Shown one piece after another: positions 42,695 through 64,000 of a stretch of DNA of 64,000 nt. The notes under the pieces are model-generated. The model was not told the DNA's origin. It ran no database searches and saw only the letters and a program-made list of their open reading frames with translations. Every line of letters begins with the position of its first letter. The stretch's first letter is position 1. The DNA comes from Bacteroides sp. (GTDB lineage: Bacteria; Bacteroidota; Bacteroidia; Bacteroidales; Muribaculaceae). The stretch is from contig JAAVCG010000005.1 of NCBI GenBank assembly GCA_014802435.1, positions 1 to 64,000 of the forward strand. The letters run 5' to 3'. The translations under genes and the position numbers were made by a program.

Positions 42695-43822
42695 ATGGCT
42701 GATGGACGACTGATTACGGTAGCTATTCATACTTTTGACAAGGCTGCTCAATTAAAAACGCTCTTGGAAAATGAGGGCGTGGAGGCCGTCCTGCAGAACG
42801 TTAACCTCTCTGACCCCGTGATTTCTTCCGGGGTCAGAGTTCGTATACATGAGGATGACCTCCCGTTGGCCCTGCGCATTATTGAAAACCCGGAGATTTT
42901 TGCCGTCGTTGATAAAGCGAAGCCCATGGAGAGCGTGACCGGCGAACAGACTTTGCTCTTGCCAGTTGACTTTTCCGAGCGGTCGTTTCATAGCGCCAAG
43001 GTGGCGTTTTCTATTGCTGCTCAGCATGGTTGGCGCGTCGTTTTCCTTCATGCCTATCTTGTGCCGCGCTCATCGTCAATCATGTCTCTTTCTGATTCGC
43101 TCAACTTTGATGTCAGTCAGGCGGGAGAATCGCAAGCCTCCATTGAGATTGCCCGTGGAGCGCATGAAATGATGTCATCGCTGATTGAGCGCGTAAAGTC
43201 ATCAATCAAGCGCGGACTCATGCCGGGCGTGAAATTCTCCAGTGTACTCCTTGAGGGAGTCCCGGAGGAGTGTATTGCCCAGTATATTAAGGAAAACCGC
43301 ACCGTGCGCCTGATTATTATGGGCACTCGTGCCGCCAGCCGGAAGGCCCATGACCTGGCGGGAAGCATTACGGCCGAGGTGCTTGATAGTTGCCGCATTC
43401 AAGCCTTGACAGTCCCTGAGGGTGACGCTTGGTTTAACTCGTTGGCCGACGTTAAGAGCGTCAGTCTGCTCTCAACCCTCGAGCAAGAAGACTTCCTCGC
43501 CCTTGACGCTCTCAACCGGTTGATGCCCCCCGGCAAACATCTTGACGTCAAGGTAATCTGTCTGCCCTCAAACAAGTATATGCGCTCAACAACCAAGGCT
43601 GCGCGCACAGCCCTCAGCGAGTACTGTAACGAACACTTCCCTCATTACTCCTTTACCCTCGAAAACGCCGGGAGCAAATTAGAGTCGCTTGAACAAAACG
43701 GCCCCGACCTTATCGTCGTCCCCAACCGCAAGAAAAACATGCTCCTCCGCCTCTTCAATCCCGGCCTCGCCCACCGCATCCTCTTCCACACAGACATCCC
43801 CATGATGGTCATCCCCGTCTAA
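42695..43822 (+). CDS. DUF2007-like domain fused to universal stress protein domain(s)
   Basis: DUF2007-like N-terminus; Usp-like LLPVDFSERSFHSAKVAFSIAAQHG and LIIMGTRAASRKAHDLAGSITAEVL. Confidence 0.75.
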   Translation: MADGRLITVAIHTFDKAAQLKTLLENEGVEAVLQNVNLSDPVISSGVRVRIHEDDLPLALRIIENPEIFAVVDKAKPMESVTGEQTLLLPVDFSERSFHSAKVAFSIAAQHGWRVVFLHAYLVPRSSSIMSLSDSLNFDVSQAGESQASIEIARGAHEMMSSLIERVKSSIKRGLMPGVKFSSVLLEGVPEECIAQYIKENRTVRLIIMGTRAASRKAHDLAGSITAEVLDSCRIQALTVPEGDAWFNSLADVKSVSLLSTLEQEDFLALDALNRLMPPGKHLDVKVICLPSNKYMRSTTKAARTALSEYCNEHFPHYSFTLENAGSKLESLEQNGPDLIVVPNRKKNMLLRLFNPGLAHRILFHTDIPMMVIPV

Positions 43823-45213
43823 TCCGGCTCGATAGTTTCGGTTACGGAATTATAGGTGAAGGATTCGGTGGCGGATTTGATGAAGTTGGGGCCGGAGGTC
43901 AGGAGGTCGTCGGGGAGGTCATAGGTGTTGTCGTTGACTTGGAGGGTGTAGATTCGCATTCCTTTGGCTTGAGCTGCGGTGAGTTGTCGTGTCATTTCCG
44001 GATGGAGCGGGCCCCATTGGAAATCAGAGATTACGAGCATGTCGGCATTCTTGAATTTTTGTTTAAAGGGCCGGTATTTTGATTCTTGGGGAAGATGGTT
44101 GAAAATGAAGTCAAAGAGCGCGTTTTCATTGTTTCCGCCTGAATAGGAGTAAGATAGGAAGTGAAGCAGTCGCTTCCGCTGTCTGATAAGATTTGTCAGG
44201 ACAAAGAATGAAACGTCAAATGAATAGTTAATCAGACAGACCGGGCGTTTGTCTTTCTGAGCCACAATGGCTATGGCTAATGCCAGGGTCTTGGCAAGCG
44301 TTTCCGGTTCGCCGGTCATTGAGCCGCTGGTGTCAATACAGATGTAGATGGGGCCGGATTTGTCTTCCTGTTGTTCGGTTGAGCGGGAGGCGGAGGAGAA
44401 TATTTGGAGGCGTTTTTCGGCAAATTTTTGGTAGAAAATGTTTTCTGTCCCACGGGTGGCTAACAGGGCTAATTCAGAGGGCAGGAGGGTGTTGAGATTA
44501 TTTCCGGTGGTTACTCCGGAGATGTCGCTTCGTGAGGCAGACTGAAATTTTCCCTTTGCTGTGAACGATATGGAGCCTCCCCGACGCCCGATTTTCACCG
44601 CTAAATCCAAGATTGACGGATGAATTCGGCGGAGAAACTTCGCCTCGGCCGTGTGTGCCTGATCTGATGCTCCGCCGCCATGTTGATTTTTTGCGGCGAT
44701 GGCATAGTCTTTCAGCTCATCAGATTGAAACTGATTGGGCTTGAATGAGGTTGAGTGGCTTTCCGTAAGGTCTGATATTTCGGCATTTGGGGAAAAGAAC
44801 TCCATCATTTCCGGAGTGACTTCATCTTCATCCTTTTCTTGTTTCTCCTCCGGGTTGATTTCTGACTCGATGCGTGCCTTTTCGCTGTCAGAGAGCGGAA
44901 AGAGATGGCGTGCCATCCAGTCATTGAGGAAGTCTTCCTTCAGCTCCGTTCGTCTCGTTTCATCTGCCCATTCTCCGGAGCTCAGCGAGTCCATAAACTG
45001 CCTGATTTCAGCTATGGAGTATGCTTTCCAAAAGTCATCTTCGCCAATGACGCTATAAAACCGCGAATCGCAAACAATGTCCTTCATCATCTGATATTCA
45101 GGCGAAGAGGCGCCATGGAGATGATTTACCATGGTCATGAAATTGCCTCCACCTTTCATTGAGGCGGCAAATCCAACGATGCGTCGAAGATATGTCAGGT
45201 GAGTTTTAATCAT
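43819..45213 (-). CDS. VWA-domain protein, ViaA-like
   Basis: IYICIDTSGSMTGEPETLAKTLALA; adjacent to a RavA-like ATPase. Confidence 0.78.
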   Translation of the reverse strand: MIKTHLTYLRRIVGFAASMKGGGNFMTMVNHLHGASSPEYQMMKDIVCDSRFYSVIGEDDFWKAYSIAEIRQFMDSLSSGEWADETRRTELKEDFLNDWMARHLFPLSDSEKARIESEINPEEKQEKDEDEVTPEMMEFFSPNAEISDLTESHSTSFKPNQFQSDELKDYAIAAKNQHGGGASDQAHTAEAKFLRRIHPSILDLAVKIGRRGGSISFTAKGKFQSASRSDISGVTTGNNLNTLLPSELALLATRGTENIFYQKFAEKRLQIFSSASRSTEQQEDKSGPIYICIDTSGSMTGEPETLAKTLALAIAIVAQKDKRPVCLINYSFDVSFFVLTNLIRQRKRLLHFLSYSYSGGNNENALFDFIFNHLPQESKYRPFKQKFKNADMLVISDFQWGPLHPEMTRQLTAAQAKGMRIYTLQVNDNTYDLPDDLLTSGPNFIKSATESFTYNSVTETIEPD

Positions 45214-46616
45214 TTCACACTTTTAATTCGGGTGCGATAAACTGCTATTACGTTTTGGAGTGGGGCATAAAGAGATGAGTTTGCCGTAAACAGATTTTGA
45301 TTCATCGAGCCAAAAAGCCTGTCAGCCATGGCGTCAACCGAATCACCCGCCTCAGTGATAAAATCGCCGGTCAGGTGACTGTCTGAGGTCCTCTTAAGGG
45401 AGTAATTAAACCCGTTGATGGCAATGACTCCCTCCTGGATAAACTTGATGATAAATGGTCCGCGGGCACGGATTATGAGATTTCCGTCAGTTGTTTCCGC
45501 TCCATAATGCAACGTGCCAGAGTTGGCCTTGAGGGCTTCATAATCTTTAATGGCAATTTTCATGGGGCTGCCATCACATTGCAGGATGTAATTCTTCTTG
45601 TCAGGGGAGAAGAAGGCGGGCTGCGAGTCAGTCTTCACGTGGCGCACGCTGCTCTTGATGTTGTCAAGATATTGCCGGAACAGGGCGGCGACAATCGTTT
45701 CAAACAGGATTTGTTGCACCACGGGAATCGATTCAACATCGTTCCAGAGCATATGGCTTAACAGCATCAGGTCAGAGAGGTCCGTCTCCTCGCGCCCGTT
45801 GAGAAACGCCGACATACGCATTACTCCGACGGCCTTTTTCCATCGGCGGTCTGATACGTAATACTTCATGTTTTCAGGCAGATTCTCGCCCGTGATCGGA
45901 TCTTTTTCGTCAATCTTGTTGTTGAGCTTCACCCTGATGTCGTAGATGAGGTCAAGCAGTATCCCGGGGATTCTGACCTGCTTGCTTTTTGATTGGATGG
46001 AGTTAAAATCTGACTCCGTCAGGGGCTTAAACTTTGGCGGCGTAGTTGCGCATGGCTGACTCTCCAGAAGATGGATAAAATTCTGTTTGCGGTCAATCGG
46101 GTTGACGATGTATCGGATAAGGAATCGGTCCCATAGGGCCTCAAGGCCTTCATCCTTGGCGGGGAGCTCATTAGAGGCTGCGATGATTCCTTTCATCGGG
46201 AGCTTCATTTCGCGGTTACCATTGATGAATATGCGCTCATTCAGGGCGGTCAGGAGTGAATTTTGAATCGCCGGCCCCGCCTTCCATATTTCGTCAAGAA
46301 ACACCACTTCCGCCTCCGGGAGATAACCGGCGGTTACGCGCTCATAGCAGTCGTTATCCTTGAGTTTGGATATGCTGACCGGGCCGAATATTTCATCCGG
46401 AGTGGAAAAACGTGACATCAAGTATTCAAACACCCGGGCATCCTTAAATGCCAATTTAAGCCGTCGGGCCATCATTGATTTGCCTACTCCCGGGAGGCCC
46501 AAAAGAAAGATGCTTTCACCGCTCAAGGCGCTTAATAGGCTCAGCGCCATCGCATCATCCCGCTCAAAAGTGTCGGCCTTCATAGCCGTAAGTATTTCCT
46601 GTATTCGCTTCTTCAT
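45210..46616 (-). CDS. AAA+ MoxR-type ATPase, RavA-like
   Basis: LLGLPGVGKSMMARRLKLAF, VFLDEIWKAGPAIQNSLLTALNER; start set to MKKRIQEIL. Confidence 0.82.
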   Translation of the reverse strand: MKKRIQEILTAMKADTFERDDAMALSLLSALSGESIFLLGLPGVGKSMMARRLKLAFKDARVFEYLMSRFSTPDEIFGPVSISKLKDNDCYERVTAGYLPEAEVVFLDEIWKAGPAIQNSLLTALNERIFINGNREMKLPMKGIIAASNELPAKDEGLEALWDRFLIRYIVNPIDRKQNFIHLLESQPCATTPPKFKPLTESDFNSIQSKSKQVRIPGILLDLIYDIRVKLNNKIDEKDPITGENLPENMKYYVSDRRWKKAVGVMRMSAFLNGREETDLSDLMLLSHMLWNDVESIPVVQQILFETIVAALFRQYLDNIKSSVRHVKTDSQPAFFSPDKKNYILQCDGSPMKIAIKDYEALKANSGTLHYGAETTDGNLIIRARGPFIIKFIQEGVIAINGFNYSLKRTSDSHLTGDFITEAGDSVDAMADRLFGSMNQNLFTANSSLYAPLQNVIAVYRTRIKSVK

Positions 46617-46748
46617 AGTAACTGCAAAGATAAAACACCCCACGGGCGGAATCACGACCCATGCCTGTTAAAATTCCTTAACCATTCACAATTCCCCCCA
46701 AGTTTCGCTATCACTCTGTTATAATTCACTCATACTATATAACCAATG

Positions 46749-52624: not shown

Positions 52625-52903
52625 TTAGTAGCCTTTACCGTTAAATTCGATCGAGAATGAACCGGAGTATGATTCACACTTCTTTGTGATGTTTTCGTTG
52701 CATCGACTTGCGCATGCAGTTTCACAACCAGCTGCATCTTTTGCGTCGGAAATAGTTAACGAACGTGTGTCAGGGTCTCCTAAAAGATTATAGGAGCACT
52801 TGCAGACAGGATTGGTTAAATCGCCTGCCAGGATGCCTTTGAGTTCCTCCGGGGTCAGAGGGGTGCCGATGAGTTCGGCAGCAGGAATGATGAGTTTGCT
52901 CAA
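52625..52903 (-). CDS. GG/AG-leader precursor peptide 1, six-Cys core (TTG start)
   Basis: MSKLIIPAAELIGTPLTPEELKGILAG leader; core with C-x-C ... C-x3-C-x3-C-x7-C. Confidence 0.8.
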   Translation of the reverse strand: MSKLIIPAAELIGTPLTPEELKGILAGDLTNPVCKCSYNLLGDPDTRSLTISDAKDAAGCETACASRCNENITKKCESYSGSFSIEFNGKGY

Positions 52904-52940
52904 GATTCTTTTAGGTTTAAATGGTTAATAATTGAGTTTA

Positions 52941-54809
52941 TTAGTGAGGCTTTTGGGCCTCGATTGTTATTGATTCTTTTAGGTATTGTTCTTTGGGGAG
53001 GTAGGGATTGTGTTTGTTGACGTTTTGCAGTTCCTGATGGGTGCTTTCGTTCGGAGAAGTGAGGTTTATATGGTCAAAACCTGATTCGGAGAGGAGAGTG
53101 CAGATTTCTGAGACAAGATGGAGGTAGGCCTTGCTGAGTCGGGCGATGAAAGCATTGATTTGTTTTGAATCAGGCATTTCGCGCAGAGCATCGGCGCGAT
53201 AGAAGGTCAGGCGCAGTGTGCCTCCGGGTGAAAGGATACGGAAACATTCGCTTAAAACTTTCTTGAGCCTTTCAGGTCCGAAATTTTCAATGAGATGCTC
53301 GGCAAAAATGAAGTCAAAGGAACTGTCCGGGGCCGGAATCGGTTGGGTCACATCAAGAAACGTCACTCCAAAGTCCGGTTCAACGTCAGTGTTGAGCCAT
53401 CCGGGCAACTGATTCATCCCGCAGCCCAATTGTAGCGCCTTTGGACCGTCGCCGGCAAGATATTCGGCAATGCTCACCGGGTTGGGTTGCTCCGCCGCAG
53501 TCTTGAACGCCATAGGATAATGGCGCAATTTGACGCGGGCATTGTCGAAGTGGCGGCGAATCATGGAGTCATGGTTGTTTGACTCAGTGATGTCCGAATA
53601 GCCGAAGTCGGTTTGCTCGGAGATGAATGGAACGGTAACCATCTTGGCGGTCAGAAGGGCGGATAGTTTCTCATCGGCCACGTCGCGCAGGCTGAACGGA
53701 GCGCTGAGTATCAGGTCGTAAGCGTTGCGGTAAATGACGATGAACTGTGTACACCAAAATCGGTCAATCCACGCCACACCGCCCGGTAGGGGGACGAGGT
53801 TAGAGAAGTCACCGATGCCGCCCGAAAGCATCTGCGCACCCATTGCTCCGGCGAGCATTATCTGATGCAGAAGGCGCTCGCGATTGTATGCTTCCGTAAA
53901 GAAGTGGTCGTCCTCACATATCAGCACGAAGTCTTCATCGCTCTCCTTGGCTTCGGTGATTATTCGACAGATACTTTGCCAAAGGCCGATAGCGCCGATT
54001 TCGTGGCGCGACGCCTCGACGATATGCAGGTCAAATTCCGGACGGCCCTCAAACTCCTTGCGGATATGCTCCAGGCGGTCTGTTCGCTCCGGAAGGTTGA
54101 TGACGTAAGTGGGGATGAACGCGCGGCTTACGTCGGCCGACATAATGGCGCGCAGGGTATCGGGCGATATGGCTGAGTAGTGATTACGGACCTTATGCAG
54201 CTGAGCAAGAAGGCTTTCATTCTTCTGGAAAAAGCGAGTTACGCGCCCTTCCTCCTCGTTGATACTGGTAGCGTCGGAATAGCCAAACTCGCGCTGAATA
54301 CTGATATAAGGCGCCATAACATATTTTCGTTTGGCCAAATAGGAGAGTTGAATATCAACGGCATAACCCTCAGTGGTCTTTGCGGCAAGAATCTTAGGGT
54401 AGCAGCGGCGGAAAATCACCGTAAACTGCATCCCGTTAAACCAGTTGACCCAAAAAAGTCCCGGCGCAACCTCAACGGGATTGCGACAAACGGACATTCC
54501 ACCCGACAGCAGGTCGGCGTCAAGACTCTGCGCAAGCCGGATATAGTGCAACAATGTATCCCGGCTATAAGCTTCGGTAAAGGCATGGTCATCCTCGCAG
54601 AAGATGAAAAACTCACTTCCCCGGCGCTCCTCTTCCTCGACTATGCCGTAGAAAGTCTGCCACAGCCCATAGGGACCGTTGCGATGCTCGATTGCCGGAA
54701 CGATATGCAACTCAAACTCATCGCGCCCCTCAAACTCGCCGATAATCGACTCCCTGCGCTCAGTCCGAGCCGCAAGATTCACAGCATATACTTGTAGTTT
54801 TTCTGTCAT
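52941..54809 (-). CDS. Tandem GT25-like glycosyltransferase domains fused to a SAM methyltransferase
   Basis: Two copies of ...EDDHxFTEAYxRxxLLHxIxxAxxxxAxxLSGG; C-terminal ALQLGCGMNQLPGWLNTDVEP...FAEHLIENF. Confidence 0.82.
   Translation of the reverse strand: MTEKLQVYAVNLAARTERRESIIGEFEGRDEFELHIVPAIEHRNGPYGLWQTFYGIVEEEERRGSEFFIFCEDDHAFTEAYSRDTLLHYIRLAQSLDADLLSGGMSVCRNPVEVAPGLFWVNWFNGMQFTVIFRRCYPKILAAKTTEGYAVDIQLSYLAKRKYVMAPYISIQREFGYSDATSINEEEGRVTRFFQKNESLLAQLHKVRNHYSAISPDTLRAIMSADVSRAFIPTYVINLPERTDRLEHIRKEFEGRPEFDLHIVEASRHEIGAIGLWQSICRIITEAKESDEDFVLICEDDHFFTEAYNRERLLHQIMLAGAMGAQMLSGGIGDFSNLVPLPGGVAWIDRFWCTQFIVIYRNAYDLILSAPFSLRDVADEKLSALLTAKMVTVPFISEQTDFGYSDITESNNHDSMIRRHFDNARVKLRHYPMAFKTAAEQPNPVSIAEYLAGDGPKALQLGCGMNQLPGWLNTDVEPDFGVTFLDVTQPIPAPDSSFDFIFAEHLIENFGPERLKKVLSECFRILSPGGTLRLTFYRADALREMPDSKQINAFIARLSKAYLHLVSEICTLLSESGFDHINLTSPNESTHQELQNVNKHNPYLPKEQYLKESITIEAQKPH
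52946..52961 (-). promoter_or_regulatory. Conserved stem-loop before precursor 1 (GAGGC-N6-GCCTC)
   Basis: Same element at 58195-58210 and 62899-62913. Confidence 0.5.
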
Positions 54810-54814
54810 TTCGG

Positions 54815-57673
54815 TTATTTCTTTTTCGGTTTGATGTCGAGGCGATAGGTGAGGGAGAGCAGGGCGTAAGATGATACTGTGTTGTAGCGGATCTCGGTGC
54901 GTCCTTGGGCGTTGACGGAGCGTTGGGTGTTGGGGAGTTGGTGGAGGATATCAAACCCTATGGCCTTGACAACCCATTGGTTACTCTTTCCGAAGGCTTT
55001 TGAGAGAGTGAGATTCCATACCCAGTCAGTGGTGTTCATCGCTTTTTCGGCATATCCGCGGCGGCAGTAGGCCATAAGTTCGGTGTCAAGGTCGATTCCC
55101 CAGACAAGGGGCGACGTGGCTGAGACGCCATAGTTGACGTCAAGGTAACTGAACGGGGCAAAAACGTCGCTGAGGCTGACAAGCCTGTTCCATTTCAGGT
55201 CAACAATGCCATTGACGCTGAACGCATTATGTCGCCATGTGAGCTTGAATTTTTCGCTTATTCTGTAGTTGTTGACTTTCAGAAGATCCAGCCCGGAATT
55301 GTTGTCGGACGAGTAATCAACACTGCGCATAAGGGTTGGTATAATAGAGTTGCTGAAATAGAAGCTCTCTCTACGGTCAAGTGCCCGCTGATATGAAATG
55401 TTACCATAGACATTGAAGTTGCCGTTGATGTTGCGAGGTTGCAGTGTTGTCAGACCCGATTGGCGGTCGTAGGTTTGTGCCAATGCAATCAAATTGTTTG
55501 CTTGTTCGTATCCGGCACTGATTGACCAGCGTTGCATATGAGGCAGACCTTCTTGACTGATTTCGGCTTTTAGATTGTGAACGGAAGCTTTCGTCAACTG
55601 GGGATTTCCCAGACGAATCAATAGCGGATTACTCGTGTCTGAAACTTGAAGCATTTCCATCATTTCAGGGAGAATCTGCCTCAAGGACCAAGATATTCTC
55701 CATCCGATTTTGGATTTATTTACGGAGTAAAGCGCGATAATTGGCTGGAAGGTGATATCATTCTTATTCAGACGAAGGAGTTCGTTATAGCGGTAATCGT
55801 TAATTGTGCGGTTATGGAATTCCAAAGGGAGGTCCATCTGGAGCTGAGCCTTGAATATCCGTAATATGAAGGAAGCTGATAGAGAGTTCTTTTTGTTAAG
55901 GCGTGTAGTACTGTAGCTATTTATTTCGTCTAAGACCCATGTATTGGCTGCTGAGGGAACTATCTGTTCTTGGAAGACGCCAGACTCAACTTCGCGACGC
56001 TTGAGCGCACGCGATCCGCTTAAATGTTCCTGCTCGTAGCTGTATGTCAGGTGGCCGTCCATATAACCGTTGATTGGTTTATCCGAACCGAAGCTATGCC
56101 TGAAAGAAAGGGGACTGAAGCTCGCTCCATAGTGATAGCTGTGGCTTGGTTGATGGCCTTGTTGCTGCTCGTCGAGATTATAAGTGGCGTTGAGAGGATA
56201 GTGGAGGTAGTCCCAATTGTTAGCGTTTTCGTTGGCAGAGTTATATTTGCCGAATACGTTGAACAGGACATATCGGTTCGCAAACTTTAAAGGGCTACGA
56301 ACTGCAAAATCGGTCGATAAAGATACGCCCCAACGCTCTTCTTTTTGGTTGTTGAAGACCTTGCGGCTATAGAGTAAAGGAGTACCATCTGTAATACCTT
56401 CTTTGCCGTCTGTTTTTTCAATATTTTCTGAGTATTTGCAGCTGTTATGATGATAGAATGCTGCGGGCTTAACATTTAGCCAACCCCAGTCCCATTTTTT
56501 GTTCATGTTGCCGTTCCATTTCAGTTCGGTTGAATTGTTGTGGGAGTTGCTCGCCGAGCGGCTGAACGTATTTCCCCCCTCGAGGTATGTCTCGGTAAAT
56601 GTCTGCCTCCCTAATTTAACGTTACGTCTCTCGGCTTGTAGAGTCGTGTTGAAACTAAGCCGTTTCGATTTGTTTTCATTGCTATAATCAACTCCGGCAG
56701 ATTTGACGGTTATTTCGCCGCTTCCAGGGTCGGTTTTTATCCAGGTTCCACTGCTTGATGCTTCGCGCGTATCGTTCAGATTATTAGCGTTGGCATATAC
56801 TGATATGCTCTGAACCGGAGTGTAATACATAGCGAATACTCGCCCTAACCACTTCAAGTCAGCGCGATCATAGAGCGTTGATCCCAGACCTAATTCATAG
56901 TTGGAAATCAATCCCTTAGCATATTCTCGCTTAAGTTTAACGTCCATAACCAATGGGTCCTCCTTTGTCTTCGCCATTCCATTGAGTCCCTTCATTTCGT
57001 CCTCTTTACGATAAACCTGAATCTTATTTACCGTATAGGCGGGCAGATTGCTCAGAGCAACGCGCGGATCTCCCTTGAAGAAGTCTCGGCCGTTGACCAT
57101 TAGCGACGATACAAACTCGCCGTTAATCGTTATGCGCCCGTTTTCGTGCAACTCTGCGCCGGGGAGCGCCTTTATGAGATTATCGAGCATCGAACCCTCC
57201 GAGAGCTGAAAAGCCGCTGCATTATACTCGATAGTATCCCCCTTCATGACCATCTTGACCCGTGTAGCCGTCGCCGTGACCTCATTCAGCAATTTGGCGT
57301 TCATTTTCGGGAACATCTCTACGTCAGGAAGCCACAAAAGAGCTCCGGGTTTTAAAGCTAATTTAGTCGGCTTAAACTCAATAACCTTATTGTCATAACC
57401 ACTTACAATAAAAGTCAATGAGTAATATTTCATCATAGGGACCTGAACAACAAATCTCCCGTTATCACCTTCTACATTGATCTTAACCGAATCTGCAATT
57501 AGTTTATTTCCTGTCGTTCGGATTTCGAAAATATGATTACCTAATATCGGTTCTCCATTAAAACCATCAATTACACTTCCGGCAAAATATACAGAGTCAA
57601 TCTTCTCTGAGTGAGTAGCAAAACAAAAGATTGAGTTCGTCAATAATAATATTATAACTAAAAATACTCTCAT
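54815..57673 (-). CDS. TonB-type outer-membrane beta-barrel protein 2
   Basis: Paralog of 49645-52614 and 59915-62857; EVTATATRVKMVMKGDTIEYNAAAFQL; C-term SYALLSLTYRLDIKPKKK. Confidence 0.82.
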   Translation of the reverse strand: MRVFLVIILLLTNSIFCFATHSEKIDSVYFAGSVIDGFNGEPILGNHIFEIRTTGNKLIADSVKINVEGDNGRFVVQVPMMKYYSLTFIVSGYDNKVIEFKPTKLALKPGALLWLPDVEMFPKMNAKLLNEVTATATRVKMVMKGDTIEYNAAAFQLSEGSMLDNLIKALPGAELHENGRITINGEFVSSLMVNGRDFFKGDPRVALSNLPAYTVNKIQVYRKEDEMKGLNGMAKTKEDPLVMDVKLKREYAKGLISNYELGLGSTLYDRADLKWLGRVFAMYYTPVQSISVYANANNLNDTREASSSGTWIKTDPGSGEITVKSAGVDYSNENKSKRLSFNTTLQAERRNVKLGRQTFTETYLEGGNTFSRSASNSHNNSTELKWNGNMNKKWDWGWLNVKPAAFYHHNSCKYSENIEKTDGKEGITDGTPLLYSRKVFNNQKEERWGVSLSTDFAVRSPLKFANRYVLFNVFGKYNSANENANNWDYLHYPLNATYNLDEQQQGHQPSHSYHYGASFSPLSFRHSFGSDKPINGYMDGHLTYSYEQEHLSGSRALKRREVESGVFQEQIVPSAANTWVLDEINSYSTTRLNKKNSLSASFILRIFKAQLQMDLPLEFHNRTINDYRYNELLRLNKNDITFQPIIALYSVNKSKIGWRISWSLRQILPEMMEMLQVSDTSNPLLIRLGNPQLTKASVHNLKAEISQEGLPHMQRWSISAGYEQANNLIALAQTYDRQSGLTTLQPRNINGNFNVYGNISYQRALDRRESFYFSNSIIPTLMRSVDYSSDNNSGLDLLKVNNYRISEKFKLTWRHNAFSVNGIVDLKWNRLVSLSDVFAPFSYLDVNYGVSATSPLVWGIDLDTELMAYCRRGYAEKAMNTTDWVWNLTLSKAFGKSNQWVVKAIGFDILHQLPNTQRSVNAQGRTEIRYNTVSSYALLSLTYRLDIKPKKK

Positions 57674-57787
57674 AGGAAGTTTTCAACACTTAATTTATAT
57701 AAGATTAGAGTTTGATATTCGCAAGATTTGCTTGACAACAAGGGGATTAGAGGGTTCTATAAGAATTGATGAGCAGGGTCGAAGATT

Positions 57788-57820
57788 TAGATAAACTGAT
57801 TTTCAAAACCTGTTTATCTA
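57788..57820. repeat. Inverted repeat TAGATAAAC-N15-GTTTATCTA between precursor 2 and OMP2
   Basis: 9-bp perfect arms. Confidence 0.65.
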
Positions 57821-57830
57821 TGTCAGAAAC

Positions 57831-57876
57831 TAAAAGGAGGGGCCCTCAATATTAGAATTATAATTTGAGGAGCCCC
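57831..57876 (-). terminator. Rho-independent-type terminator after precursor 2
   Basis: Minus strand GGGGCTCCTCAA-loop-TTGAGGGCCCC followed by TCCTTTTA. Confidence 0.7.
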
Positions 57877-57898
57877 ACCCCAAATGGGAACATGTGTG

Positions 57899-58153
57899 TT
57901 AACTATCTATTGCTGAGAATGAGATAGAGTAATCGTAGCAGTTCTCCGTTTTAGAACAGAGATCTTTGCATTCTGACCGGCATTCTTTTTCGGTTGTAAT
58001 GCCATTAAGTTCCTTGCCAACTCCGGTAGCTCCTAACACTTTCAGGTGACAAGAGCATGAGTAAGTGGTTGCTCCGGCAATGATGCCTTTGAGTTCCTCC
58101 GGTGTCAGAGGGGTGCCGATGAGTTCGGCAGCAGGAATGATGAGTTTGCTCAT
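57899..58153 (-). CDS. GG/AG-leader precursor peptide 2, six-Cys core
   Basis: MSKLIIPAAELIGTPLTPEELKGIIAG leader; CSC...CRSECKDLCSKTENC core. Confidence 0.82.
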   Translation of the reverse strand: MSKLIIPAAELIGTPLTPEELKGIIAGATTYSCSCHLKVLGATGVGKELNGITTEKECRSECKDLCSKTENCYDYSISFSAIDS

Positions 58154-58194
58154 GATTCTTTGGTTTTTAAATGGTTAAAATTTAGTTGATTAGT

Positions 58195-58210
58195 GAGGAT
58201 TTCGGGCCTC
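58195..58210 (-). promoter_or_regulatory. Conserved stem-loop before precursor 2 (GAGG-N8-CCTC)
   Basis: Homologous position to 52946-52961 and 62899-62913. Confidence 0.5.
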
Positions 58211-58218
58211 GTTTTTGG

Positions 58219-63345: not shown

Positions 63346-63441
63346 CTAAGGCATATTTGAAGCCCTATTGCTACAGGATGGTTGCCGGCGAGAAATGCCC
63401 CCCGTTAGACTAAATTGGTGATAATGATGGAAATTTTGCAT
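63346..63441 (-). pseudogene. 5' stub of a second C39 ABC exporter
   Basis: MQNFHHYHQFS resembles MRKFPHYHQLN of the intact exporter and has the same TAATG junction with the upstream barrel gene; unrelated sequence follows, then TAG. Confidence 0.6.
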
Positions 63442-64000
63442 TATTTTCGTCTGGGTTTTATGTCAAGGCGGTAGGTGAGGGAGAGCAGGGCGTAGGAGGG
63501 CTGGGAGTTATAGCGGGTTTCGGTTCGCCCCTGAGCGTTGACCACCTGGCGAATGGTCGGAAGTTGGTGGAGCAGGTCAAAGCCGATGGCTTTGACGGTC
63601 CATTGCTTGGCGGAACCGAAAGTCTTGCTCAGTTGGAGGTTCCATACCCAGTCGGTCGTGTTCATTGTTGGCTCTTCGTAGCCACGGCGACAATATACCA
63701 TCAGTTCGGTTTGTATGTCGACACCCCAAAGCAATGGCGTCGAGGCTAATATTCCATAGTTTACGTGCATAAAATAAAATGGCGCAAAAACCCGGTCAAG
63801 ACTTACAAGTCTATTCCAGTTAAAGTCGACTTTGCCGGAGATGGTTGCGTTCCCCGGCGTCCATTTAAGTTCAAAGTTGTTATTAATTTGCCAGTGATTT
63901 ACTTTCAGAACATTAGGCACGTCCGAATCAGTTGAGTAGTCCGCAGAACGCAATAACTCGCCTTTAAGAGAGTTTGAAAGGTAGACCCGTTCGCTTTTAT
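63441..64000 (-). CDS. TonB-type outer-membrane beta-barrel protein 4 (C-terminal part; runs off the window)
   Basis: C-term SYALLSLTYRLDIKPRRK; WVWNLQLSKTFGSAKQWTVKAIGFDLLHQLPT shared with OMP2/OMP3. Confidence 0.85.
   Translation of the reverse strand, partial: KSERVYLSNSLKGELLRSADYSTDSDVPNVLKVNHWQINNNFELKWTPGNATISGKVDFNWNRLVSLDRVFAPFYFMHVNYGILASTPLLWGVDIQTELMVYCRRGYEEPTMNTTDWVWNLQLSKTFGSAKQWTVKAIGFDLLHQLPTIRQVVNAQGRTETRYNSQPSYALLSLTYRLDIKPRRK

Follow-up and report, generated by a model that had tools for sequence, protein, structure and literature searches.

Two short genes on the minus strand in the genome of a gut bacterium of the Muribaculaceae encode cysteine-rich precursors, and each is followed by a gene for a TonB-receptor-like OMP. 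What are these peptides, and why is each of them paired with an OMP? We addressed these questions in the window, by which we mean the whole analysed stretch of 64,000 nt (the first part of contig C5 of this genome, G000). Coordinates without a prefix refer to the window, and those on the contig beyond its end carry the prefix C5.

Layout of the array and the cysteine frame

The precursors were found to belong to a 30-kb array that spans about C5:77,000 down to 46,749, lies entirely on the minus strand and runs past the window end. It comprises five leader genes, seven OMPs, one intact oxidase, a GT25-methyltransferase, a PCAT and an HlyD-like protein, in the following arrangement.

C5:78518-77301, minus: histidine kinase, chromosomal neighbour upstream of the array
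C5:77113-76938, minus: start remnant of an oxidase gene
C5:76896-74068, minus: OMP1
C5:74001-73885, minus: dead precursor (leader plus 12 residues, then a stop; no Cys)
C5:73700-70836, minus: OMP2
C5:70519-70349 (L009:10349-10519), minus: internally deleted oxidase remnant
C5:69926-70195, minus: precursor d, beyond the window; full length, five Cys, spacers 1-34-5-8
C5:69915-66577, minus: OMP3, behind precursor d
C5:66259-66513, minus: precursor c, beyond the window; six Cys, spacers 1-24-3-3-5
C5:66233-63441, minus: OMP4, behind precursor c; only the 3' end (63441-64000) in the window
63174-63004, minus: internally deleted oxidase remnant
62857-59915, minus: OMP5; ORF begins with leader codons (MSKLI), own precursor lost
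59790-58219, minus: C39-like/VKOR/thioredoxin oxidase, 523 aa, the array's only intact copy (Pfam VKOR E 3.7e-9, Peptidase_C39 E 7e-7)
58074-58214, minus: 5'UTR and leader block of precursor b
57899-58153, minus: precursor b, 84 aa, ATG start; 27-aa leader ending KGIIAG and 57-aa six-Cys core; profile match
57673-54815, minus: OMP6, TonB-receptor-like beta-barrel behind precursor b; aligns with its paralog OMP7, itself without a Pfam match
54809-52941, minus: GT25-like glycosyltransferase-methyltransferase fusion, 622 aa (Pfam PF08241 E 3.5e-8, PF01755 E 2.7e-6)
52824-52965, minus: 142-bp 5'UTR and leader block of precursor a, ending at the leader/core junction
52625-52903, minus: precursor a, 92 aa, TTG start; 27-aa leader ending KGILAG and 65-aa six-Cys core
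52614-49645, minus: OMP7, behind precursor a (PF14905 OMP_b-brl_3 E 6.8e-18)
49645-47432, minus: PCAT, C39 peptidase and ABC exporter (PF03412 E 2.5e-29, PF00664, PF00005)
47435-46749, minus: HlyD/membrane-fusion-like protein, 228 aa, assigned by position and length; directly after the PCAT and kept with it in the sister species

The PCAT start was set at MRKFPHYHQ, as the listed ORF reaching 49843 looks over-extended. Both internally deleted oxidase remnants have an identical deletion joint, and the precursor deletions, in this genome and in the sister species alike, start shortly after ATGAGCAAACT; these common joints could stem from one event that was later duplicated or from a site at which breaks occur preferentially. 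A short hairpin (GAGGC...GCCTC) lies in the 5'UTR before each leader (52904-52965, 58154-58214 and further copies). It folds strongly in precursors a and c and weakly in b, and we therefore make no claim for it as a functional element.

Both window precursors proved to be as an earlier note on this DNA had described them, with a 27-aa leader (MSKLIIPAAELIGTPLTPEELKGI[LI]AG), cores of 65 and 57 aa, and cysteine spacers of 1-23-3-3-7 (core a) and 1-22-3-3-5 (core b). Their leaders are 93% identical at the DNA level. Across the precursors, the 5'UTR and leader form a block of about 142 bp with 84-92% identity, and self-comparison showed that homology stops at the leader/core junction. Two further six-Cys precursors were found in the sister species G004 (contig CAMWNI010000015.1), whose array is shorter than that of G000; their spacers are 1-21-3-3-5 and 1-24-3-3-4. 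The six-Cys frame is kept in 5/6 full-length cores of the two genomes. When each of the two window cores was shuffled 400,000 times, the frame (CxC, then 20-26, 3, 3 and 4-7) appeared 1 and 8 times, i.e., about once in 10^5. Since a and b are clearly paralogs, however, the frame is better argued from the conservation of the cysteines against the divergence of the cores. Among the five six-Cys cores compared, identity to core b is 21-45%, and the invariant columns consist of the six cysteines and one Gly and nothing else, which bears out the claim that the constraint lies on the cysteine frame. A tail of x2-Y-S-x-S-F-S, proposed as a second common feature, did not hold up, being confined to the two window copies and absent from the other three six-Cys cores. 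Loss of the cysteines in homologs had been named as the outcome that would speak against the frame; both G004 precursors keep it, whereas precursor d has five cysteines, and neither of its two alternative frames yields six.

Export, oxidation and the predicted core

The leader (...ELKGILAG, a GG/GA/AG-type end) precedes a variable core, and a C39-ABC exporter with the catalytic DCGPAC motif is encoded in the cluster, which is the combination by which PCAT substrates are recognised. The precursors thus appear to be double-glycine-leader PCAT substrates of a class II bacteriocin-like type, with cleavage predicted behind the leader. Three domains make up the oxidase: a C39-like one that lacks the catalytic Cys, a VKOR domain and a thioredoxin-like domain. 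Cys195, Cys203 and the CxxC pairs 275/278 and 396/399 were invariant in 18/18 full-length homologs. A VKOR-thioredoxin disulfide relay, as established for this family, is the role expected of these redox cysteines. As the oxidase keeps all six of them, disulfides in the cores are well supported.

Relatives of the oxidase with about 30% identity adjoin genes for Cys-rich proteins of about 150 aa without a GG leader (L092:7644-9771, on contig C32 of G000; L096, L102 and L103). Neighbours at these loci are TIGR04157-like glycosyltransferases or other enzymes, often with an OMP facing divergently.

Structure prediction, one of the checks that had been proposed, gave a confident compact mini-protein for core b (AlphaFold2 with four sequences in the input; pLDDT 89.1, pTM 0.68). 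Its predicted beta-beta-alpha-beta layout consists of strand 2-12, strand 15-22, helix 28-41 and strand 45-56, and the model places the CxC on strand 1, the Cx3Cx3C on successive helix turns and the last Cys at the opening of strand 3. The modelled geometry would be suited to strand-helix disulfides, and we claim no particular pairing. Foldseek and VIA-align found nothing below E 0.5 for the core, and Z scores reached at most 5.3 (phi29 p6, BioW, PurS), a level that the VIA-align notes class as a common arrangement. A CxC on a strand and a Cx3C on a helix fit the idea of a CS-alpha-beta fold; the matches listed included neither CS-alpha-beta nor PAN structures. Membership in the PAN domain was considered and rejected (PF14295 E 0.007; Pfam PAN_4 score 16.8 against a cut-off of 27). 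A PDB sequence search with the core profile gave no significant match, and at the NCBIfam curated cut-offs the best model, TIGR04117, reached 19.5 bits against the 50 required. The earlier suggestion of three disulfides gains from the conserved oxidase, the compact predicted core and the redox precedent of the bacteroidetocins (PMC6671954); the products probably carry three disulfides.

Cassette exchange and distribution

Comparison with G004 was possible at two sites. The flanking genes are highly similar at the amino acid level, with 94% identity for the VKOR protein, 94% for the GT25-methyltransferase (dN/dS 0.10) and 98% for the PCAT, whereas the cores show 45% (b) and 34% (a) and the OMPs behind them 30% and 35%. 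At the DNA level, identity of about 0.9 before the core drops to 0.3-0.6 across it and climbs back to about 0.95 where the OMP gene ends. The drop coincides with the leader/core boundary at site a and lies about 50 nt inside the core at site b. Other parts of the array were retained: OMP4 (95.7% DNA identity) is linked to the latter half of core c (89%) in both genomes, and OMP5 shows 93% DNA identity. Cassettes therefore have different company in each genome. Similarity of cores and similarity of OMPs were uncorrelated (rho of -0.35 to -0.29 and -0.44 over six pairs, for three OMP regions), and the closest pair of cores, b and its G004 counterpart b' (45%), precedes OMPs that differ greatly. 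Thus, the data speak for physical linkage and replacement and not for mutual specificity. Taken from sequence comparison, the array, the cysteine frame, the export and oxidation genes and the exchange of cassettes are well supported.

Precursor relatives were found in 2/11 genomes of the genus (G000 and G004) and only there. A search with the full precursor in 397 genomes of the family yielded no convincing relative besides that in G004, and a search with the core alone in 393 genomes of the order gave only weak matches, two of them with internal stops. One weak core-only match (G158) turned out on inspection to contain no precursor. IMG/VR, PLSDB and INPHARED contained no convincing relative of precursor or core. 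In another species of the genus (G008), the kinase joins a stress-protein-like gene (window 42695-43822 in G000) directly, which represents an empty site; a segment of 33.5 kb (43824 to C5:77355) is therefore present in G000 and missing there. This segment holds MoxR/VWA genes (43819-46655) as well as the array. A kinase fragment in the G004 array (L045:13159-13304) is 94.5% identical to the G000 kinase, compared to 82% to G004's own kinase, which lies on a contig separate from the array. These identities are best explained if the array passed into G004 by transfer from a G000-like lineage. A tyrosine-recombinase-like gene, named from its N-terminal sequence only, lies near the fragment (L045:3585-5021).

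Proposed function and relation to known systems

By analogy with known toxins of Bacteroidales, we tentatively favor the reading that the peptides are PCAT-exported bacteriocins and that the neighbouring OMP serves for self-protection, which we regard as plausible rather than probable. The PCAT would cut behind the leader and export the core, and the VKOR-thioredoxin protein would oxidise its cysteines in the periplasm, so that the core would fold as predicted, held by up to three disulfides. The exported core would act as a bacteriocin against close relatives, while the OMP behind each precursor would guard the producer, probably by being a form of the surface receptor that the peptide does not target, on the pattern of the BSAP systems. 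Segments comprising core and OMP would be swapped by recombination, and new specificities might arise because the common leader and the conserved OMP ends permit such recombination. A wider model, possible though more doubtful, is that of a modular interference locus with a fixed leader, exporter and oxidase and an exchangeable core and OMP, in which toxin and protective protein would be replaced in one step near the leader cleavage boundary and the OMP end; orphan OMPs would then confer immunity to former or neighbouring peptides. The missing correlation between cores and OMPs, the five-Cys precursor, the occurrence of oxidase relatives beside other kinds of Cys-rich peptides and the lack of an immunity gene in producers of bacteroidetocins (PMC6671954) count against a role as bacteriocins with self-protection.

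The OMPs themselves provide evidence on this point. OMP7 passes PF14905 and the other copies align to it; the alignment shows a plug-like region with a TonB-box-like LxEVTVTA motif, and a barrel. A structure model of OMP6 from six sequences (pLDDT 48.5) was too poor for use. Several OMPs have kept an open reading frame despite an absent, truncated or broken precursor (OMP1, OMP2 and OMP5 in G000, OMP4' in G004). G008, in which no array was detected (assembly 88% complete), has OMP5-like genes in two copies (66-68%) and a single OMP7-like gene (72%), none of them beside a precursor. In G004, an intact six-Cys precursor precedes the OMP5 ortholog. In the tree of OMP5 genes, the branch whose precursor is dead has a dN/dS of 0.38 and the one whose precursor is live a dN/dS of 0.40. 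These values derive from small synonymous/nonsynonymous counts (20/27 and 15/21, respectively), and the precursor may have been lost at any time along the first of these branches. OMPs that outlive their precursors would behave like immunity genes or receptors and less so like a pure exit portal. TPR lipoprotein-like genes (..GCRKSPVNEQLD..) adjoin several orphan OMPs (L110:8030-9709, L110:3422-5092 and L114:8909-10636).

An exit portal is nevertheless the first alternative to be weighed. The PCAT and the membrane-fusion-like protein would deliver the peptides, perhaps still bacteriocins, to the periplasm, from where a TonB-energised OMP would secrete them. We saw no gene for TolC in the cluster, and secretion of PopC in Myxococcus requires the TonB-dependent transporter Oar (PMC6434023), a precedent for such a route. 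The N-terminal domain of OMP5 has 61% amino acid identity to its G004 ortholog with saturated dS (3.4), compared to 98% for the plug and 95-97% for the barrel (dS about 0.1), as if this domain had been exchanged separately from plug and barrel; that it can vary apart from them would suit a portal as well. Gene order at a further locus (G000:C45), peptide-OMP-PCAT-MFP, means that an export role of the OMP fits too. Seven OMPs are served by a single PCAT, however, and together with the survival of OMPs after precursor loss and the orphans in G008, this makes the portal rather unlikely.

We also consider it unlikely that the peptides serve as signals, or scavenge a nutrient or metal, and are then recaptured as ligands by their own OMP, even though the plug, TonB-box-like motif and barrel, the assignment of one OMP to each peptide and the orphan OMPs would all suit a receptor. 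In the array we saw neither a signalling domain nor a sigma/anti-sigma pair nor a SusD-like partner, and the histidine kinase upstream belongs to the chromosomal surroundings, being present also where the array is absent. The GT25-methyltransferase is a possible candidate for a peptide-modifying enzyme. GT25 differs from the glycosyltransferase type usual for glycocins, and alignment of the five cores revealed no extra conserved Ser or Thr. That this enzyme glycosylates or methylates the cores, with some cysteines carrying a sugar in a glycocin-like manner and fewer than three disulfides, is thus improbable, despite its conserved place within the array in both genomes and the existence of S-glycosylated peptides with disulfides (PMC12457901), as the six-Cys frame and the conserved VKOR-thioredoxin enzyme suit disulfides.

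Elsewhere in G000, the nearest OMP paralogs follow Cys-rich peptides of the GG type that are accompanied by radical SAM maturases. As these paralogs and the oxidase relatives both occur beside other Cys-rich peptides, the partnership of peptide and OMP extends beyond the array. Four loci (contigs C8, C14, C39 and C45; L114-L117) combine a GG-leader Cys-rich peptide, a radical SAM/SPASM maturase, a GT2/LanC-like protein and an OMP of the array's family; the maturases are closest to TIGR04463/CefB, below cut-offs, and C45 also has a PCAT and an MFP-like gene. If the favored reading of PCAT-exported bacteriocins with protective OMPs is correct, the locus would represent a precursor family without a match in the collections searched, with disulfide-locked mini-proteins naturally diversified on one scaffold. 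The partner of each peptide, its OMP, would be directly testable at the locus, and a function would be given to a Bacteroidales OMP family that recurs beside exported peptides of very different chemistry. This would raise the question whether members of the family act in immunity, as receptors or as exit portals.

Among known systems, the RiPP clusters that accompany a PCAT in Bacteroidales (PMC10352776) and, in G000 itself, the clusters of radical SAM peptides share with the array a GG-type precursor, an OMP and sometimes a PCAT and an MFP; the array differs in its oxidase and tandem cassettes and in having no radical SAM, YcaO or LanC enzyme. Colicin-V-type class II microcins likewise combine a PCAT, an MFP-like protein and leader peptides, whereas the array has TonB-receptor-like OMPs in place of a TolC gene and a VKOR-type oxidase. 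BSAP toxin genes adjoin genes whose products replace the surface target of the toxin in a resistant form (PMC4999547). In the array, too, a toxin-like gene stands beside a divergent OMP, the two apparently acquired together, and OMP relatives occur as putative targets in a genome without the array. Unlike BSAPs, which are MACPF proteins, the array peptides are of about 6 kDa, with cores of 56-65 aa and no MACPF match in Pfam.

The closest resemblance is to the bacteroidetocins (PMC6671954, PMC8546649), which Bacteroidales make as class II bacteriocins and which require PCAT and thiol-oxidoreductase genes, show redox-dependent migration and have producers without an immunity gene (PMC6671954). 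Bacteroidetocins kill Bacteroidales with BamA as their target. Common to both are a short precursor with a double-glycine-type leader, an even number of cysteines expected to be disulfide bonded, a Bacteroidales producer, and a PCAT together with a thiol-oxidoreductase-type gene, the oxidoreductases being matched by gene type and not by sequence. Bacteroidetocins have a leader of 15-16 aa and a mature peptide of 42 aa with four cysteines (PMC6671954), in contrast to the 27-aa leader, the 56-65 aa core and the six cysteines found here. The array further differs in having several precursors, each with an OMP, plus the GT25-methyltransferase, and no separate five-TM protein was seen.
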